Part shown: positions 3,889-16,151 of the stretch, in pieces
Numbering within the stretch: the first letter of the stretch is position 1
How the letters are laid out: each line of letters begins with the position of its first letter
Origin: a virus
IMG/VR virus record: IMGVR_UViG_3300031972_001794
Span: 1 to 20,187 of that record
DNA length: 20,187 nt
Direction: 5' to 3' (one strand)
Notes under the pieces: model-generated
What the model was told of the DNA's origin: nothing
Database searches by the model: none
Seen by the model: only the letters and a program-made list of their open reading frames with translations
Position numbers and translations under genes: made by a program

Positions 3889-4113
3889 ATGTTAGCAGTT
3901 ACATTGACCCTATCCACAATTATTTCAGTAATGTTTTTACTGGTTGGAGGAGTGATAGGATACCTACTTAAAGAGTATGTTATTGAAAGGAACTCTACCT
4001 TTATTCCAACTCATCCAGAAATGTTTGATGAGAACGGACAGATTATTGCAGACGATATTCTTGCAGTAAGGTTTGATAACACTCCAGAAGATTTTGGTAC
4101 TGAAGAACATTGA
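3889..4113 (+). CDS. Small N-terminally anchored membrane protein
   Basis: A 74-residue protein with one clear transmembrane helix near the N terminus (about residues 5-27) and an acidic, soluble C-terminal half. A strong Shine-Dalgarno site (CGGAGG, about 3875-3880) precedes the ATG. Function unknown. The stop TGA (4111-4113) lies inside the -35 element of the next promoter. Confidence 0.7.
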   Translation: MLAVTLTLSTIISVMFLLVGGVIGYLLKEYVIERNSTFIPTHPEMFDENGQIIADDILAVRFDNTPEDFGTEEH

Positions 4114-4138
4114 CATCATAAAATAAATACTGTACACT
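4110..4138 (+). promoter_or_regulatory. Composite early/late promoter candidate
   Basis: A perfect TTGACA (4110-4115) lies 17 bases from TACACT (4133-4138, four of six matches to TATAAT). The spacer contains an exact late motif AATAAATA (4122-4129), 29 bases ahead of the gene at 4159. The arrangement could allow expression both early and late. Sequence observation; function inferred. Confidence 0.55.
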
Positions 4139-4158
4139 GAATAAAATTATTAATAACC

Positions 4159-4638
4159 ATGGCTACATCAACAAAAAAAGTTACTACACCAAAGAAACTT
4201 CCACCTAATCCATTCATTCATGAAATTTTTGAATACGTTTCTGCACAAAGAACCGTAGCAAAAAAGGTGGAAGCACTGAAGGAATATCGTTGTGACGCAG
4301 TAACTACACTTTTGATTTGGAACTTTGATGACACTGTGGTGTCCATGCTTCCTGAAGGTGAAGTTCCTTTTGAGAAGAATGATGTTCCTGTCGGAACAGA
4401 TCACAGTTCTCTTCGTAAGGAATATAGAAACCTTTATCACTTTGTGAAAGGTGGTAACGATAGTCTCTCGAAAACTCGTAGAGAGTCTATGTTCATTCAA
4501 ATTCTTGAAGTTCTTCATCCAACTGAAGCAAATCTTCTTTGTCTTGTGAAAGATAAACTTCTGGAAAGTCAATATAAAATCACTAAAGGTGTAGTAGAAT
4601 CTGCATACCCAGACATTCAGTGGGGCGGAAGATCTTGA
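4159..4638 (+). CDS. Cyanophage-conserved protein (DUF6433-like)
   Basis: A 159-residue protein that I believe belongs to a family found widely in T4-like cyanophages (recalled as DUF6433; not checked). Visible marks are a Lys/Thr/Pro-rich N-terminal tail, the segment LLIWNFDDTVVSMLPEGEVP (about 52-71), the motif HFVKGGNDSLSKTRRE (about 94-109), and an ending in DIQWGGRS. It is soluble, with no catalytic motif I can name. It sits behind its own composite promoter, which suggests high or prolonged expression. Biochemical role unknown. Confidence 0.75.
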   Translation: MATSTKKVTTPKKLPPNPFIHEIFEYVSAQRTVAKKVEALKEYRCDAVTTLLIWNFDDTVVSMLPEGEVPFEKNDVPVGTDHSSLRKEYRNLYHFVKGGNDSLSKTRRESMFIQILEVLHPTEANLLCLVKDKLLESQYKITKGVVESAYPDIQWGGRS

Positions 4639-4907: not shown

Positions 4908-5098
4908 GTAACGGATTCGATATTAAACTTGAGGGTATCGATATGAACCCTGATCAAGTTCAAACATTACTTAAACAGTATAAGAAGATAAAAAAATATC
5001 AGAAGTCAAATCTGTTTGCAGTCAAGACCCTTGATGGGACAGAGGATTATGTCTCTGAGTTGATTAAGGAAGGTGAAGAATACGGTGCCCTTGACTAA
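4904..5098 (+). CDS. Small hypothetical protein
   Basis: A 64-residue protein starting in an ATGA overlap with the upstream gene. The middle is basic and helical (LLKQYKKIKKYQKS, about 22-35), while both ends are acidic. No family recognised. It is the last gene before the segment that carries the homing endonuclease. Confidence 0.65.
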   Translation: MSNGFDIKLEGIDMNPDQVQTLLKQYKKIKKYQKSNLFAVKTLDGTEDYVSELIKEGEEYGALD

Positions 5099-5103
5099 AT
5101 AGG

Positions 5104-5147
5104 GACAGTGGTCTACAATAGACCTGTCGTTCATCCGAGAAATCGGA
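5104..5147 (+). promoter_or_regulatory. Two hairpins ahead of the endonuclease gene
   Basis: The first hairpin is GACA (5104-5107) plus GGTCTA (5110-5115) pairing with TAGACC (5119-5124) plus TGTC (5125-5128): ten pairs, a two-base bulge and a three-base loop. The second is TCCGA (5134-5138) with TCGGA (5143-5147), closed by a GAAA tetraloop. No T-run follows either. The second straddles the edge of the putative insertion, so it may belong to the endonuclease cassette. Confidence 0.5.
5127..5136 (+). repeat. Left copy of 10-bp direct repeat flanking the endonuclease
   Basis: TCGTTCATCC here is repeated exactly at 5754-5763, right after the endonuclease stop. This is what an insertion of about 627 bp would leave. 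Confidence 0.5.
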
Positions 5148-5177: not shown

Positions 5178-5753
5178 ATGATTTACTACACTTACTACTC
5201 TTACGAACCCTTTGGGAGAGGCTACATTGGTAGTAGAGGATGTGAGTGTAATTCAGTGGAGGAGGATAATTATTTTGGTTCCTATGGAGACAAAACATTT
5301 AATCCTTCCTCTAAAATCATTCTTACCGAACATGCTACGAGAGAGGAAGCAGTTGAAGCGGAAGTAAAACTCCATGAGTTTTATCAAGTTGATACTAATC
5401 CTCACTTTGCTAATAGGGCAAAGCAAACATCTTCTTCATTTTCTTTCTGTTCTCAGGGAGAACGAATTGGTAGAGGCAATCCCTGTTTTGGTAAAGTTCG
5501 TGTTACTGATGGTAAAAATGAACGAGTAGTTTATGAGAATGACATTCCTTCTGGGTGGTGGAAAGGTAGAAGTCGTAATCCAAAAGAATACGCTACTACT
5601 AAATCCATAACATATACCAGAGGTAAAATGTATGATGACTTTCTAAAAGATGTAAGTAAAGATGAATCTATTTTATCTTTACCTATTAGAAAACTTGCAG
5701 AAGTTTATCAAACATCTCATACTTCTATTCGTCGCTGGAAAAAATCACTTTAA
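5178..5753 (+). CDS. Putative GIY-YIG homing endonuclease
   Basis: A 191-residue protein with a GIY-YIG-like N-terminal domain: YYTYY at 3-7 for the GIY strand, GYIGSR at 15-20 (YIG strand plus the conserved Arg, R20), a likely catalytic Glu at 62 (AEVKLH), and Asn 75 or 79 further on. The middle holds a G-x-GNPCFGK segment (about 99-106) like the DNA-binding repeats of phage homing nucleases, and the C terminus looks like a helix-turn-helix (about 167-191, ending IRRWKKSL). Such enzymes cut phage DNA and spread their own gene. GGAG at 5167-5170 supports the start. The gene stands between 10-bp direct repeats, interrupting an otherwise dense run. GIY-YIG assignment is by motif only. Confidence 0.7.
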   Translation: MIYYTYYSYEPFGRGYIGSRGCECNSVEEDNYFGSYGDKTFNPSSKIILTEHATREEAVEAEVKLHEFYQVDTNPHFANRAKQTSSSFSFCSQGERIGRGNPCFGKVRVTDGKNERVVYENDIPSGWWKGRSRNPKEYATTKSITYTRGKMYDDFLKDVSKDESILSLPIRKLAEVYQTSHTSIRRWKKSL

Positions 5754-8404: not shown

Positions 8405-9087
8405 TGTTTAATCATCAGGATGTTCCTTTCGTTCCTATTGAACGAGAGAGTATTGACGGAGTTCGTTACTATAAAGTATTTGGAACTGAAGAACTTGTAA
8501 GAATGCCATCTATCACTTCGGTGATTAGTTGGAGAAACAAAGACAAGTTTAAACAGTGGAGAGCAAAGGTTGGTGAACAAGAAGCCAACAACATTACTCG
8601 TAAGGCTACCCATCGTGGTACTGATGCCCATACGTTGATTGAGGAGTATCTGAACAACTCAGATACTTTCTCTGATGTTCTTCCCTTATCTCAGTTTCTA
8701 TTCAAACAGGCCAAACCTGAACTGAATAGGATTGATAATATTCTATGTCAAGAGACTGCTTTATACAGTACAGAACTAGGTATTGCTGGTTCTGTTGACT
8801 GTATCGCTGAGTTTGATGGTGAGTTGTCTGTTATTGACTTCAAAACATCAGCCAAACCTAAGAAAAGAGAATGGATTGAAGATTACTTTGTTCAGTGTGC
8901 AGCATATGCTTGTATGTTGTATGAGATGAAGGGTCTTATAGTCAAAAAATTTGTAATCATTATGACCTGTGAAAATGGGGAGGTAGAAGTCTATGAAGAA
9001 TACGATAAGTCCAAGTATATTAAGTTACTTGTCCAGTACATCCGCGAGTTCGTGGAATCTAAACTCAGAGAATATGCAAAGCCCTGA
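8404..9087 (+). CDS. RecB/MGME1-like PD-(D/E)XK exonuclease
   Basis: A 227-residue protein with the RecB-family nuclease motifs in order: GTDAHTLIE (72-80, with H76), E117, GSVD (129-132, with D132), VIDFKT (143-148, D145 and K147 catalytic), and a Tyr/Gln motif YFVQCAAYA (161-169). This matches single-domain nucleases of the MGME1 type, which digest single-stranded or flapped DNA ends. In the phage it probably acts in recombination, replication or recycling of host DNA (inference). It lies between phoH and gene 33, and its end overlaps the gene 33 start by 14 bases. Confidence 0.8.
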   Translation: MFNHQDVPFVPIERESIDGVRYYKVFGTEELVRMPSITSVISWRNKDKFKQWRAKVGEQEANNITRKATHRGTDAHTLIEEYLNNSDTFSDVLPLSQFLFKQAKPELNRIDNILCQETALYSTELGIAGSVDCIAEFDGELSVIDFKTSAKPKKREWIEDYFVQCAAYACMLYEMKGLIVKKFVIIMTCENGEVEVYEEYDKSKYIKLLVQYIREFVESKLREYAKP

Positions 9088-9343
9088 AGAGTTAAGTGTC
9101 GATAAAATTATAGAAAAGAAATTCTATAGTAGTCGAACTTTTGCAGAAGAGATTGAAGCCATTGTCAAGAACGGTAATGGAATGAAATACGTTGATGCAA
9201 TTGTATATTTTTGTGAAAAGAATAGTCTAGACATTGAATCTATTCCTAAACTGATTTCGAAACCTCTTAAAGAAAGATTGAAAGTAGAAGCAATGGAATT
9301 GAATCTACTGAAGAAAACATCTCACGCCAAACTTCCTATATGA
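9074..9343 (+). CDS. 33: gp33, late transcription co-activator
   Basis: Encodes 89 residues from ATG 9074, matching my recollection of cyanophage gp33. The longer reading from 8993 lies inside the exonuclease gene. In T4, gp33 binds RNA polymerase and the sliding clamp and, with gp55, switches on late promoters. Here it would act on the AATAAATA sites in this window. The centre has a helical segment with ISKPLKERLKVEA (about 62-74), and the basic, hydrophobic C terminus (KTSHAKLPI) is a plausible clamp-binding tail. Synteny with 59 and 32 downstream supports the call, as in T4. It overlaps gene 59 by four bases. Confidence 0.78.
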   Translation: MQSPEELSVDKIIEKKFYSSRTFAEEIEAIVKNGNGMKYVDAIVYFCEKNSLDIESIPKLISKPLKERLKVEAMELNLLKKTSHAKLPI

Positions 9344-12277: not shown

Positions 12278-13887
12278 TAGTAACCAGTGCCTCCTACTCC
12301 ATCTTGTTCGTGTTGATATATGGGTTCAAGTTCACTAAATGTCATAGCAATCTGGTATTGTGTCATTGAACCATCTTTATATGTCATGTAACTATTACCC
12401 GGTGTATAATTAGCACTAAAGTTAGTGAGAGCACAAGGTTTAAAAAGATTCATGAATGGATGATCTTCCCCATTATTATGTATATACTTCAATTGAAAAA
12501 TATCTGGTGTATACAGAAAAAGTCTTTGAGGTGCTATTTGAGGTGCCATTGATCTTTTAAAGAACCGTATAATTTCTTTGACGGTTGCTGCTTCAGTGTC
12601 AGTTCTTGGTGTAAATGTAAAATTAAAACTAAACTGTCTTAGTTTTGGACCTTTAAATAACAATTCAAGATTTTTATTTAAAACCTGACCGGTAGATCTT
12701 CCTACTATATTTGCACCAACTGCTTGACCTGCAAAATATGCAGTAATGTATGCACCTAATCCTGGAGTTCTGAGAAGATCTTTTGCAGCCTCTCCTGCAT
12801 TACCCAATACGTTTGCAATAACACTACCAAACTCTGTGGCTCCTGCGTTTCTAAACTTAGTGATTCCGTCAGCTGCAAGACCGGCTCCTATTTTTTGAAG
12901 TTGATTGATCTCATCCTGATTCCAATCAACAGAGTTAGATTCACTTAAATTGGGTTGCATCGGTAACTGTATTGTTCCCGTAATACGCCCCAATTTACCA
13001 AAAATACCCTTTCCGTTAGTGGTTGTGAAATCATCAAGTTTCGGTGCAACAATCTTGCCGTCAACTATCTTATCTGTGAGGAAAGGATTGGTTTTATATT
13101 TGTGACCAACAATTTGAATATAATCGTATCCAAAGGATGTGAGGTCTGCTTCTGGATATTGTAGCATTAATTTGCTATTTTCACCTGCAAATCTTTCGAT
13201 ACTATCTGTATAATAGGGATTGTCTAATTTATTTACACTAGCATAACCTGCTTCAAAAGGAAGTGTATCATCTACCGTTCCTAAAAATGCATCACCATCT
13301 AACGATGCAAAGTCTGTAAAAGGCGAGTTGGAACCAATAGAAAATCCATCAGGTGCTAAAAAACCACCAGTAAGAGTTCCATTACTTTCAGCACTACTAT
13401 CCGAGTTTTGTTCTTCACCACCACTTAAAGGAGGTACTACTTCAAGTTTAACAACCGGTGATGGTTCTGCAGTATTTGATAGTGATTTATAACCAGATAG
13501 GTTTTGTAATTCTTGATATTCTTTTCTTGATGTACTACCAGAAAGGTTCTCTTTTGCTAAATCTAAAGTTGCTTGTTTTACACCTCGATTCAGATTTGTG
13601 TATTGTTGACTATTTTTTTCTGCAAAAAAGTCATCAAAATCTGCTTGATTTGTTATTGTGGGGTTGTTGTTTGAAGCATTATATTGATATATTAACTTGT
13701 TACCAAACAAAGTTTTTTTGTATACATCGTAATTTCCATTTGATCTATTGGTTATGACAACAATCTTACTTTTGTTTTGCTTACCATCAGATCCGACAGT
13801 TCCATTATCGTAGTCAAAGGTTGCCTGATACTTTGTTGGATCATTTCCACCCAAACTTTGCCAACCTGAAGTATCTTTACTTGCCAC
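12277..13887 (-). CDS. 48: gp48, baseplate tail-tube cap protein
   Basis: A 536-residue protein. Its C-terminal 230 residues contain a small-residue-rich hydrophobic segment (LGAYITAYFAGQAVGANIVG) and then a tube-like beta domain (LRQFSFNFTFTPR..., ending with SELEPIYQHEQDGVGGTGY). In T4, gp48 (364 aa) sits on the hub and with gp54 starts tail-tube growth. The extra 170 residues, mainly at the N terminus, are Ser/Asn-rich and lack a known domain. Start is GTG at 13885-13887, supported by AGGAGA (13897-13902, minus strand). A late-type motif lies 40 bases upstream. Confidence 0.82.
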   Translation of the reverse strand: MASKDTSGWQSLGGNDPTKYQATFDYDNGTVGSDGKQNKSKIVVITNRSNGNYDVYKKTLFGNKLIYQYNASNNNPTITNQADFDDFFAEKNSQQYTNLNRGVKQATLDLAKENLSGSTSRKEYQELQNLSGYKSLSNTAEPSPVVKLEVVPPLSGGEEQNSDSSAESNGTLTGGFLAPDGFSIGSNSPFTDFASLDGDAFLGTVDDTLPFEAGYASVNKLDNPYYTDSIERFAGENSKLMLQYPEADLTSFGYDYIQIVGHKYKTNPFLTDKIVDGKIVAPKLDDFTTTNGKGIFGKLGRITGTIQLPMQPNLSESNSVDWNQDEINQLQKIGAGLAADGITKFRNAGATEFGSVIANVLGNAGEAAKDLLRTPGLGAYITAYFAGQAVGANIVGRSTGQVLNKNLELLFKGPKLRQFSFNFTFTPRTDTEAATVKEIIRFFKRSMAPQIAPQRLFLYTPDIFQLKYIHNNGEDHPFMNLFKPCALTNFSANYTPGNSYMTYKDGSMTQYQIAMTFSELEPIYQHEQDGVGGTGY

Positions 13888-13922: not shown

Positions 13923-14270
13923 TTAGTTATTTATTCTGAAACTTTGATAAGGAATAGCACGAAGTGTTTTAAGTTCCATAGGGTCAACTACACGAAGAAT
14001 TGATGATTCTTCCCAAGTATAATTCCTAAAATCACCCCAATGATAGTTTAGACCACGAAAACCCCACTCATAAACACCAACACAAGCAATTAATGGAAAT
14101 TGGTCGTATTCAACTCTTGGAGTTTTTGCTTGATAGATGAATGTATAATAACCACCCACATCAGGAATGACTTCAGTTTCTGTTAGAATTTCCATGATTT
14201 CTAACATCATGTCATCAGGATCTGTCATACTTGAGATCCTATTTTCATCCTCTTCTTTAAATCTATTCAT
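13923..14270 (-). CDS. Hypothetical protein between genes 4 and 48
   Basis: A 115-residue soluble protein with an acidic N-terminal helix and a conserved-looking centre rich in aromatics (GGYYTFIYQAKTP, GVYEWGFRGLNYHWGDFRNYTW). It starts in a four-base overlap with gene 4, so it is coupled to it. Its place among head and baseplate genes suggests a virion or assembly role (inference only). No family recognised. The late motif for gene 48 lies at its stop codon. Confidence 0.75.
   Translation of the reverse strand: MNRFKEEDENRISSMTDPDDMMLEIMEILTETEVIPDVGGYYTFIYQAKTPRVEYDQFPLIACVGVYEWGFRGLNYHWGDFRNYTWEESSILRVVDPMELKTLRAIPYQSFRINN
13928..13935 (-). promoter_or_regulatory. Candidate late promoter (AATAAATA, minus strand) for 48-53
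   Basis: Exact AATAAATA on the minus strand, 40 bases ahead of the gene 48 GTG. It is the only minus-strand copy noticed, and it faces the minus-strand structural genes. Confidence 0.55.
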
Positions 14271-14752: not shown

Positions 14753-15400
14753 ATGCCTGGACCATCTCCAAATTCAATTAAAACCTCGGCACTAAAGAGT
14801 AAAATTCTTCATGTTGCCCAGACATCGGTATATCAAGTCAAAGTTCAACCTCCATCAAGAGTGATGAACTTTCTTAATAGTGGAACAAGAAATTTCAATT
14901 ACTCTGCAGATGGTGAAAACGTTGAGTTGATGTGTTCTGCTGCATCTCTTCCTGGTGCAAACCTTTTTACTCATGAAGCAACAAATGACTTTGCTGGTAT
15001 GTCAGAAAAAATGGCATATCGAAAGGATTTTGGAAACACTCTCGATTTGACCTTTATGGTGAATAATCGATATGATGTGATTGAACTATTTGATGGTTGG
15101 GTTGACTTTATTGCAGGTCAAAGTTCCGATAACAGAGGATATTTTAATAGTGCAGTAAGTTATCGGATGAATTATCCCCAAACTTATAGAAGTAATGTAT
15201 ATTTGACTAAATTTGAGAAGAATGCCACAGCAGAAAGGAGAAGAAGTATATCTGACAGTTATCAGTTGCAATATACCTTTATAGATGCATTCCCAATTAG
15301 TATTGCACCAACTCAAGTGAGTTATGAAGCAAGTAATGTTTTGAAATACAACATCTCATTGTCCTATACTAGGTACATTAGAGAGCGTAAATATGCATAA
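14753..15400 (+). CDS. 54: gp54-like baseplate tail-tube initiator
   Basis: A 215-residue beta-rich protein resembling phage tail-tube folds: a segment with CSAASLPGA (about 63-71), the central LDLTFMVNNRYD strand, and a C-terminal strand (ISLSYTRYIRERKYA) that parallels the end of T4 gp19. In T4-like cyanophages a protein of this kind next to 26 is called gp54, the platform on which gp19 tube polymerises. It is shorter than T4 gp54 (320 aa), so a tube-like relative is possible. It starts the plus-strand structural run. No Shine-Dalgarno site. Confidence 0.7.
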   Translation: MPGPSPNSIKTSALKSKILHVAQTSVYQVKVQPPSRVMNFLNSGTRNFNYSADGENVELMCSAASLPGANLFTHEATNDFAGMSEKMAYRKDFGNTLDLTFMVNNRYDVIELFDGWVDFIAGQSSDNRGYFNSAVSYRMNYPQTYRSNVYLTKFEKNATAERRRSISDSYQLQYTFIDAFPISIAPTQVSYEASNVLKYNISLSYTRYIRERKYA

Positions 15401-15406
15401 TAAATA
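15399..15406 (+). promoter_or_regulatory. Candidate late promoter (AATAAATA) for the gene 26 run
   Basis: Exact AATAAATA overlapping the gene 54 stop, 26 bases ahead of the gene 26 ATG. Confidence 0.6.
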
Positions 15407-15431: not shown

Positions 15432-16151
15432 ATGCCTTTACCAAAGATTGTAACTCCTGAGTATGATTTGGTATTACCGTCAACCCAGAAGAAGATTACT
15501 TATAGACCTTTTCTAGTCAAAGAAGAAAAACTCTTGGTTCTTGCTCTCGAAAGTGAGAATACAAAACAGATTACGACCGCAATCAAATCTGTTCTGAAGA
15601 GTTGTATTCTTACTAGAGGTATTAAGGTAGAGAAACTTCCGACTTTTGATATTGAATATTTGTTCTTGAATATCAGAGCTCGGTCAGTTGGTGAAGAAGT
15701 TGAGGTAAACATTGTTGCTCCTGATGATGGAGTGACAAACGTAACAGTTACTATTGACCTTGAAGAAATTCAGGTTCAAACTAACGAAAACCATACTAAT
15801 AAGATTAAACTTGATGATACCTTGGTGATGGAGATGAAGTATCCTTCACTGGAACAATTCATTTCAAATAACTTTGACTTTGAAGACAACACTGATATCA
15901 ATCAATCATTTGAATTGATTGCATCATGTATTGATAAGATTTATAGTGAGGAAGAGGTCTGGGCAACTGAGGACTGTACAAAAAAAGAAGTTATTGACTT
16001 CTTGGAACAAATGAATTCAACTCAGTTTAAAGACATTGAAGTTTTCTTTGATACTATGCCAAAACTATCTCATACAATTGAGATTACAAATCCAAACACT
16101 AAAGTAAAAAGTACTATCGTTTTGGAGGGTTTATCCAGTTTTTTCGCATAG
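15432..16151 (+). CDS. 26: gp26, baseplate hub assembly protein (candidate tail chaperone)
   Basis: A 239-residue protein recognised as T4 gp26-like (T4: 208 aa) by its start (LPKIVTPEYDLVLPSTQKKI), the YRPFLVKEEKLLVLA segment (25-39), and KSCILTRGIKVEKLPTFDIE (about 56-75). gp26 is needed for baseplate hub formation. The C terminus ends at a TAG two codons after a T TTT TTC heptamer (16139-16145). A -1 shift there would bypass the stop and continue into the next small frame. It follows a late-type promoter, and the tape-measure-like gene stands just downstream. Confidence 0.85.
   Translation: MPLPKIVTPEYDLVLPSTQKKITYRPFLVKEEKLLVLALESENTKQITTAIKSVLKSCILTRGIKVEKLPTFDIEYLFLNIRARSVGEEVEVNIVAPDDGVTNVTVTIDLEEIQVQTNENHTNKIKLDDTLVMEMKYPSLEQFISNNFDFEDNTDINQSFELIASCIDKIYSEEEVWATEDCTKKEVIDFLEQMNSTQFKDIEVFFDTMPKLSHTIEITNPNTKVKSTIVLEGLSSFFA

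Follow-up and report, generated by a model that had tools for sequence, protein, structure and literature searches.

The DUF6433 gene of a virus of marine cyanobacteria, known from a fragment carrying T4-like cyanophage genes, is quite likely driven by two overlapping promoters, one recognised with the host sigma factor and the other with the phage gp55, with a handover from the former to the latter. The whole fragment of 20,187 bases was analysed and is referred to here as the window; its genes include those for glutaredoxin, thyX, PhoH, an exonuclease, a gp33-type late regulator, a helicase loader, ssb, the tail tube, and a baseplate hub. The composite site, TTGACA-N17-TACACT at 4110-4138, lies directly before the DUF6433 gene (Table 1), and the 17-base spacer between its -35 and -10 boxes reads TCATAAAATAAATACTG. 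According to the initial annotation, this spacer holds an exact AATAAATA and the -35 box takes in the upstream gene's stop codon; direct reading of the sequence agreed on both points. The site has the TTGACA-type -35, the 16- to 18-base spacer and the TANNNT -10 of a host-type promoter, and also the NATAAATA box, with its sense-strand bias before genes in the window's branch, of a T4-type late promoter. Both elements before one gene and kept in relatives, as in an overlapping early/late promoter, were found in the window's branch only.

Table 1. Features of the composite site and its flanking genes in the window, and RNase H insertions at the corresponding place in relatives
Feature	Position	Strand	Basis or remark
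Upstream 74-aa gene, phrog_275, T4-GC 312 in annotated relatives	3889..4113	+	
Host-type (sigma-70-like) -35 box, TTGACA	4110..4115	+	Direct reading; contains TGA 4111-4113 (ORF 3889-4113)
Late-type box, AATAAATA	4122..4129	+	Direct reading; inside the 17-base spacer
Host-type -10 box, TACACT	4133..4138	+	Direct reading; TANACT in relatives too
Late start, predicted with the box placed at -13 to -6	4135	+	From T4 geometry (PMC1524935)
Conserved GA right after the -10 (TANACTGA), discriminator position	4139..4140	+	Conservation; putative role
Host-type start, predicted with the -10 box placed at -12 to -7	~4145	+	From usual sigma-70 geometry
159-aa gene, DUF6433 / phrog_461 / T4-GC 313	4159..4638	+	
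RNase H insertion loci	L087:632-1495, L095:612-1490, L096:632-1495		S-PM2, S-WAM1, Sf-CH3

Conservation of the site was assessed in 254 loci, which comprised those from three viral-contig scans, 14 named phage regions, and the window. The scan loci were the best 80 of at least 575-596 relatives in each of the three scans; the set is therefore biased to near relatives, and records very near the window may be absent. Seven loci with no usable start or with short upstream DNA were dropped (L047, L130, L153, L182, L194, L200, and L248), and the 247 scored loci formed 78 clusters at 85% identity. Among these best-80 loci, 58 of the 78 clusters had a gap between the T4-GC 312 and DUF6433 genes. Both elements, the late box being scored as [AC]TAAATA and the strict promoter by its TTGAC, were present in 24 gap clusters, the late box only in 14, and the strict host-type promoter only in 6, so that the strict promoter was found in 30 of the 58; neither strict element was present in the other 14, some of which retained near-matches. 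In the control, 14 clusters with overlapping genes and no room for the site, the box occurred in one and the promoter in none. The remaining 6 clusters had no recognised T4-GC 312, and one of them (L146, L174) carried both elements. With this cluster, whose upstream gene differs, the two elements were found together in 25 clusters of the best-80 loci. The distance from the start of TTGAC to the start of the box was 13 bases in 23 of the 25, 12 in one, and 14 in one; the box was ATAAATA in 14 and CTAAATA in 11. The initial annotation had staked its proposal on both elements being conserved upstream of the gene family. This held, at fixed spacing, in the window's branch and failed in the wider family, where neither is kept at this place; the proposal thus falls for the family as a whole and stands for the branch.

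The behaviour of the boxes across genomes was monitored in S-B05 and P-TIM68 by counting them, sense versus antisense, 10-80 bases before ORFs. The counts were 38 versus 3 and 25 versus 0, respectively, for ATAAATA, 11 versus 0 and 12 versus 1 for CTAAATA, and 16 versus 0 and 11 versus 3 for TTGAC-N17-19-TANNNT. Since this strand contrast is independent of base composition, the ATAAATA and CTAAATA late boxes and the host-type promoters are established features in the branch. Genes with both elements within 100 bases upstream were not above the number expected under independence in S-B05 (3/279, 4.75 expected), P-TIM68 (2/237, 3.1 expected), or Syn9 (2/197, 2.5 expected). The composite was also tried as a genome-wide motif and rejected: ATAAATA-N2-4-TANACTGA gave just one match in 10 genomes, TTGAC-N6-10-ATAAATA matched four times, in 3 of 13 genomes and twice before DUF6433, against two matches for the reversed control, and ATAAATA-N2-4-TANNCT gave 10 matches against 8 for the control. 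Many late boxes of S-B05 (L100-L110) have the longer form ATAAATAACTAAAAAG or similar, and its DUF6433 box is without that extension.

For the columns of the spacer, 32 clusters were picked solely by TTGANN-N17-TANNNT, and the conservation of the -35 and -10 columns in this set, a product of the selection, has no proof value. The TAAATA columns reached 1.0-1.6 bits and the others 0.2-0.6, except one C at 0.9; TAAATA was the sole conserved block in these host-type spacers. If the host-type promoter alone worked, the shape or melting of the DNA might be what preserves the AT-rich spacer, and AATAAATA might be a look-alike. This promoter is near consensus with optimal spacing, and it occurs without the box in 6 clusters, as such a reading would have it. 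Nevertheless, conservation was limited to TAAATA and did not extend to general AT content, the same box is strongly sense-biased before genes, and 14 clusters have the box and lack a strict promoter; in about nine of these, the -10 has decayed as well. We therefore regard a host-type promoter working alone as unlikely.

The two elements have also been lost separately. The box was exact and both the -35 and the -10 were gone in L017, L027, L074, L218, L254, L255, L270, L276, and L287; in most of these nine loci, the upstream gene ends with the TAA of the box. The reverse state, an intact promoter and no box, was seen in L009, L019, L029, and L181. Five of the 14 late-only clusters retain a TANNCT-type -10, two of these also a TTGAA -35, and at least two of the 6 host-type-only clusters retain a one-mismatch box; because of these partial remnants, the clean losses are fewer than the counts. 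On the best protein tree, a quick one with 32 of its 75 inner branches unsupported, at least 13 changes were obtained for the promoter and at least 15 for the box. Since both elements are kept at fixed spacing and each is lost alone in some lineages that retain the other, dual use, as initially proposed, is the best reading.

The losses of the host-type parts in many clusters, together with the overlap of the -35 box and the stop codon, would also suit a late promoter working alone, with TTGACA as a by-product of the Asp/Glu-stop end of the gene before it and TACACT as a relic. However, TTGAC is retained in L041, L143, L145, and L152, where the stop codon precedes it, and it is retained with the whole module when the upstream gene is an unrelated one (L146 and L174). 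On the strength of these six loci, we rejected the idea that the -35 arises from the stop codon alone. As the 17-base spacing and TANACT are retained as well, we consider a late promoter working alone very unlikely.

We also considered that a further phage regulator may recognise the composite as a single unit, to which the conserved GA behind the -10 would belong. In the 32-cluster set, TANACTGA was well kept (G in 28/32 and A in 31/32 clusters), and the GA is not general among 42 host-type sites of the same spacing in three genomes. Each half is lost alone, however, and a G after the -10 also suits an ordinary discriminator, which makes the single unit highly improbable. In the window itself, which is AT-rich, neither motif taken singly was above expectation (ATAAATA, 5 found versus 5.95 expected; TTGACA-N15-19-TANNNT, 2 found versus 2.62 expected). 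When the window was shuffled 500 times by dinucleotides, TTGAC-N17-19-TANNNT with ATAAATA in its spacer was found in one shuffle; none of the 500 had two or more overlaps with either box type, whereas the real window has two. Conservation carries more weight than this shuffle count as evidence for the composite, and a chance overlap, which we hold to be extremely unlikely, is already refuted by the conservation within the window's branch, where the spacing is identical in 23 of 25 clusters.

Two overlapping promoters before DUF6433 would be confined to part of the family. Among the 14 named phages, the composite was found with ATAAATA in S-H68, S-B05, and S-B43 and with CTAAATA in P-TIM68; P-HM2 had the host-type promoter only, and neither element was found before DUF6433 in Syn9, S-PM2, P-SSM2, S-SM1, P-SSM7, S-ShM2, S-WAM1, Sf-CH3, or SynMITS9220M01. 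The composite was thus missing at DUF6433 in 10 of the 14 examined and, as judged from these loci, is restricted to one branch of the DUF6433 family. In the most distant branch, with eight named phages, [AC]TAAATA was found before T4-GC 312 in Syn9, S-SM1, P-SSM7, S-ShM2, and S-WAM1, and it was not found there in S-PM2, P-HM2, or Sf-CH3. An element precedes DUF6433 in 44 gap clusters; 43 of these were examined, and none carried one before T4-GC 312. By the position of the boxes, late expression of the gene pair looks more widely kept than the composite, with the box shifted by one gene. The T4-GC 312 / T4-GC 313 pair is located between nrdC and td in the phage records of relatives. An RNase H gene (rnh) lies between the two, directly upstream of DUF6433, in S-PM2, S-WAM1, and Sf-CH3. 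In 14 clusters (loci such as L039:4947-5438, L026, and L052), the same DNA encodes in two frames an acidic C-terminus of T4-GC 312 and a Lys/Thr-rich N-terminus of DUF6433.

Several other features of the window were recorded. A second overlapping site, TTGACTAAATAGGGACAGTGGTCTACAAT, which was absent from the initial annotation, is located at 5091-5119, 60-87 bases before a homing-endonuclease-like gene at 5178; a close match was found in one of 13 genomes, at Syn9 159895-159923 before gp196. ATAAATA was in a late-promoter position at 13928-13934 on the minus strand, before a gene at 13887 (minus strand) in the structural region, and at 15400-15406 on the plus strand, before the baseplate hub gene at 15432. 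A 176-residue pentapeptide-repeat-like protein is encoded at 708-1238, its A(D/N)LxxA repeats being judged by eye.

The initial annotation had called the host-type element early and predicted expression throughout infection. In Syn9, a strict host-type site was found within 100 bases upstream of 15 ORFs, none of which is annotated as structural. They were ssb (the gene at 1245), the gene for a gp55-like late sigma factor, the gene before the clamp operon, DNA polymerase, nrdB, one high-light-inducible gene, and nine genes of unknown function; apart from these nine, replication genes together with the late sigma gene make up most of the set. The 299-residue gene of P-TIM68 was tried as gp32 and rejected, as it belongs to phrog_1574. 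The late box preceded 33 Syn9 ORFs; structural or assembly functions are annotated for 11 of these, and the T4-GC 312 gene, gp224, is also among the 33. The abstract of Doron 2016 is said to place middle genes under host-like promoters. Given the Syn9 gene set behind the host-type sites, "middle" is a better label for the host-type promoter than "early", which is probably wrong, and a middle-then-late course fits better than expression throughout infection.

The view that one site is readable by both polymerases also needed revision. In T4, the late box lies at -13 to -6 (PMC1524935) and the clamp is at the upstream end of the late complex (PMC7892883). The T4 box position, taken with the usual sigma-70 geometry, gives two overlapping sites with predicted starts about 10 bp apart and no joint occupancy. 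In the picture that we favour, TTGACA-N17-TACACT would be used first, by the host's polymerase and main sigma factor, with a start at about 4145; the middle phase is the most likely time for this. Later, a polymerase programmed by the phage through gp55, gp33, and the sliding clamp would use AATAAATA and start at about 4135. The predicted late start falls within the host-type -10 box, so the two complexes should exclude each other; the clamp at the upstream end of the late complex would also cover the -35 region. With the starts about one helical turn apart and the same DNA covered, one complex would be bound at a time, and a handover from the host sigma factor to gp55 at one place would keep the gene on from middle into late infection. 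We infer the use of both starts, their timing, and the handover. A gene for a gp33-type late regulator is present in the window (9074-9343, phrog_254, E 1.5e-27); the gp55 gene is located outside the 20-kb fragment.

The product of the gene was examined by structure modelling. The DUF6433 model, built from 50 sequences, had a mean pLDDT of 80. In a Foldseek search against the PDB, ranks 1-14 of 34 matches were ligases, with weak E-values (best, 0.034). With VIA, the model matched the DNA-binding domain of T4 DNA ligase gp30 (5wfy) at Z 13.4 over 131 of its 132 residues and that of the Prochlorococcus ligase (6rar) at Z 13.2 over 130 residues, values that helical models may reach by chance according to the tool's own warning (Z up to about 13-14); all 34 entries among the matches listed were DNA ligases. 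Unlike these two ligases, DUF6433 is without nucleotidyltransferase and OB domains, and the identity is 8-13%. Five of 24 DUF6433 members matched the ligase PHROG phrog_114 at E up to 1 (best, 1.2e-5). The P-HM2 member did so at 2.2e-4, in the part of the profile that T4 gp30 fills from residue 1; the window's own protein had no match to phrog_114. hhalign of DUF6433 with six gp30 domains was negative (2.2% and 0.6%), PDB sequence searches found no ligase, and Pfam at E up to 10 gave DUF6433 only, with no nucleotidyltransferase catalytic domain. Having no catalytic domain and 159 residues, the protein was therefore not filed as a ligase.

A search of 13 cyanophage genomes revealed no catalytic domain of an ATP- or NAD-dependent ligase (T4 control, 9.3e-35). 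A "DNA ligase" feature is annotated under the match in RN05-S, RB11-B, and DSL-LC03, which is perhaps the DUF6433 gene. A clamp contact through the ligase DNA-binding domain was dropped, as the clamp-binding part of T4 ligase sits in the nucleotidyltransferase domain according to PMC12121391. On the structure model, a kinship of the DUF6433 fold to the ligase DNA-binding domain is likely. More tentatively, DUF6433 could be an orphan ligase DNA-binding domain, of which cyanomyoviruses lacking a ligase kept the grip on nicked DNA alone. If so, DUF6433 would act at nicks or Okazaki junctions, e.g., by presenting them to the host ligase or by shielding them as sites for clamp loading, and it would thereby bear on the link between replication and late transcription, which is ligase-controlled in T4. 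The overlapping promoters would then keep DUF6433 on across the middle-to-late change, and a function would be assigned to a gene family present in 475 phage records. A literature search found no paper on DUF6433.

The DUF6433 promoter joins an already described kind, that of overlapping host-type and late promoters, and a literature search on such promoters in cyanophages gave no paper about this gene among the matches listed. Overlapping early/late promoters have been proposed for middle genes of RB49 and S-PM2 (and Syn9), phages without MotA/AsiA, as a middle-mode device with host-type and late-type elements before one gene, as here (PMC2984593). That proposal concerns homologues of T4 MotA-controlled genes, and the available part of the paper mentions no exact composite of fixed spacing for T4-GC 313; a few such S-PM2 genes checked there by Q-PCR had no middle profile, so the support is mixed (PMC2984593). 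For psbA of cyanomyoviruses, one motif serves as both the sigma-70 -10 and the gp55 site and another as the -35 (PMC5931967); however, psbA is another gene, with a leader of 125-453 bp compared with the 24 or 14 bases predicted here. The T4 late promoter TATAAATA has the same eight-base box, in which A at -13 is a known variant, and the Aeh1 late form with C at -12 matches the CTAAATA form of 11 of the 25 clusters (PMC2988020 and PMC1524935). In contrast to T4, whose late promoters have no conserved -35 according to the same sources, the box here lies between a host-type -35 and a host-type -10. Lineages with both halves, one, or neither at otherwise matching loci provide a natural dissection, through which the old idea that early and late promoters overlap in T4-like cyanophages becomes directly testable by mapped starts.
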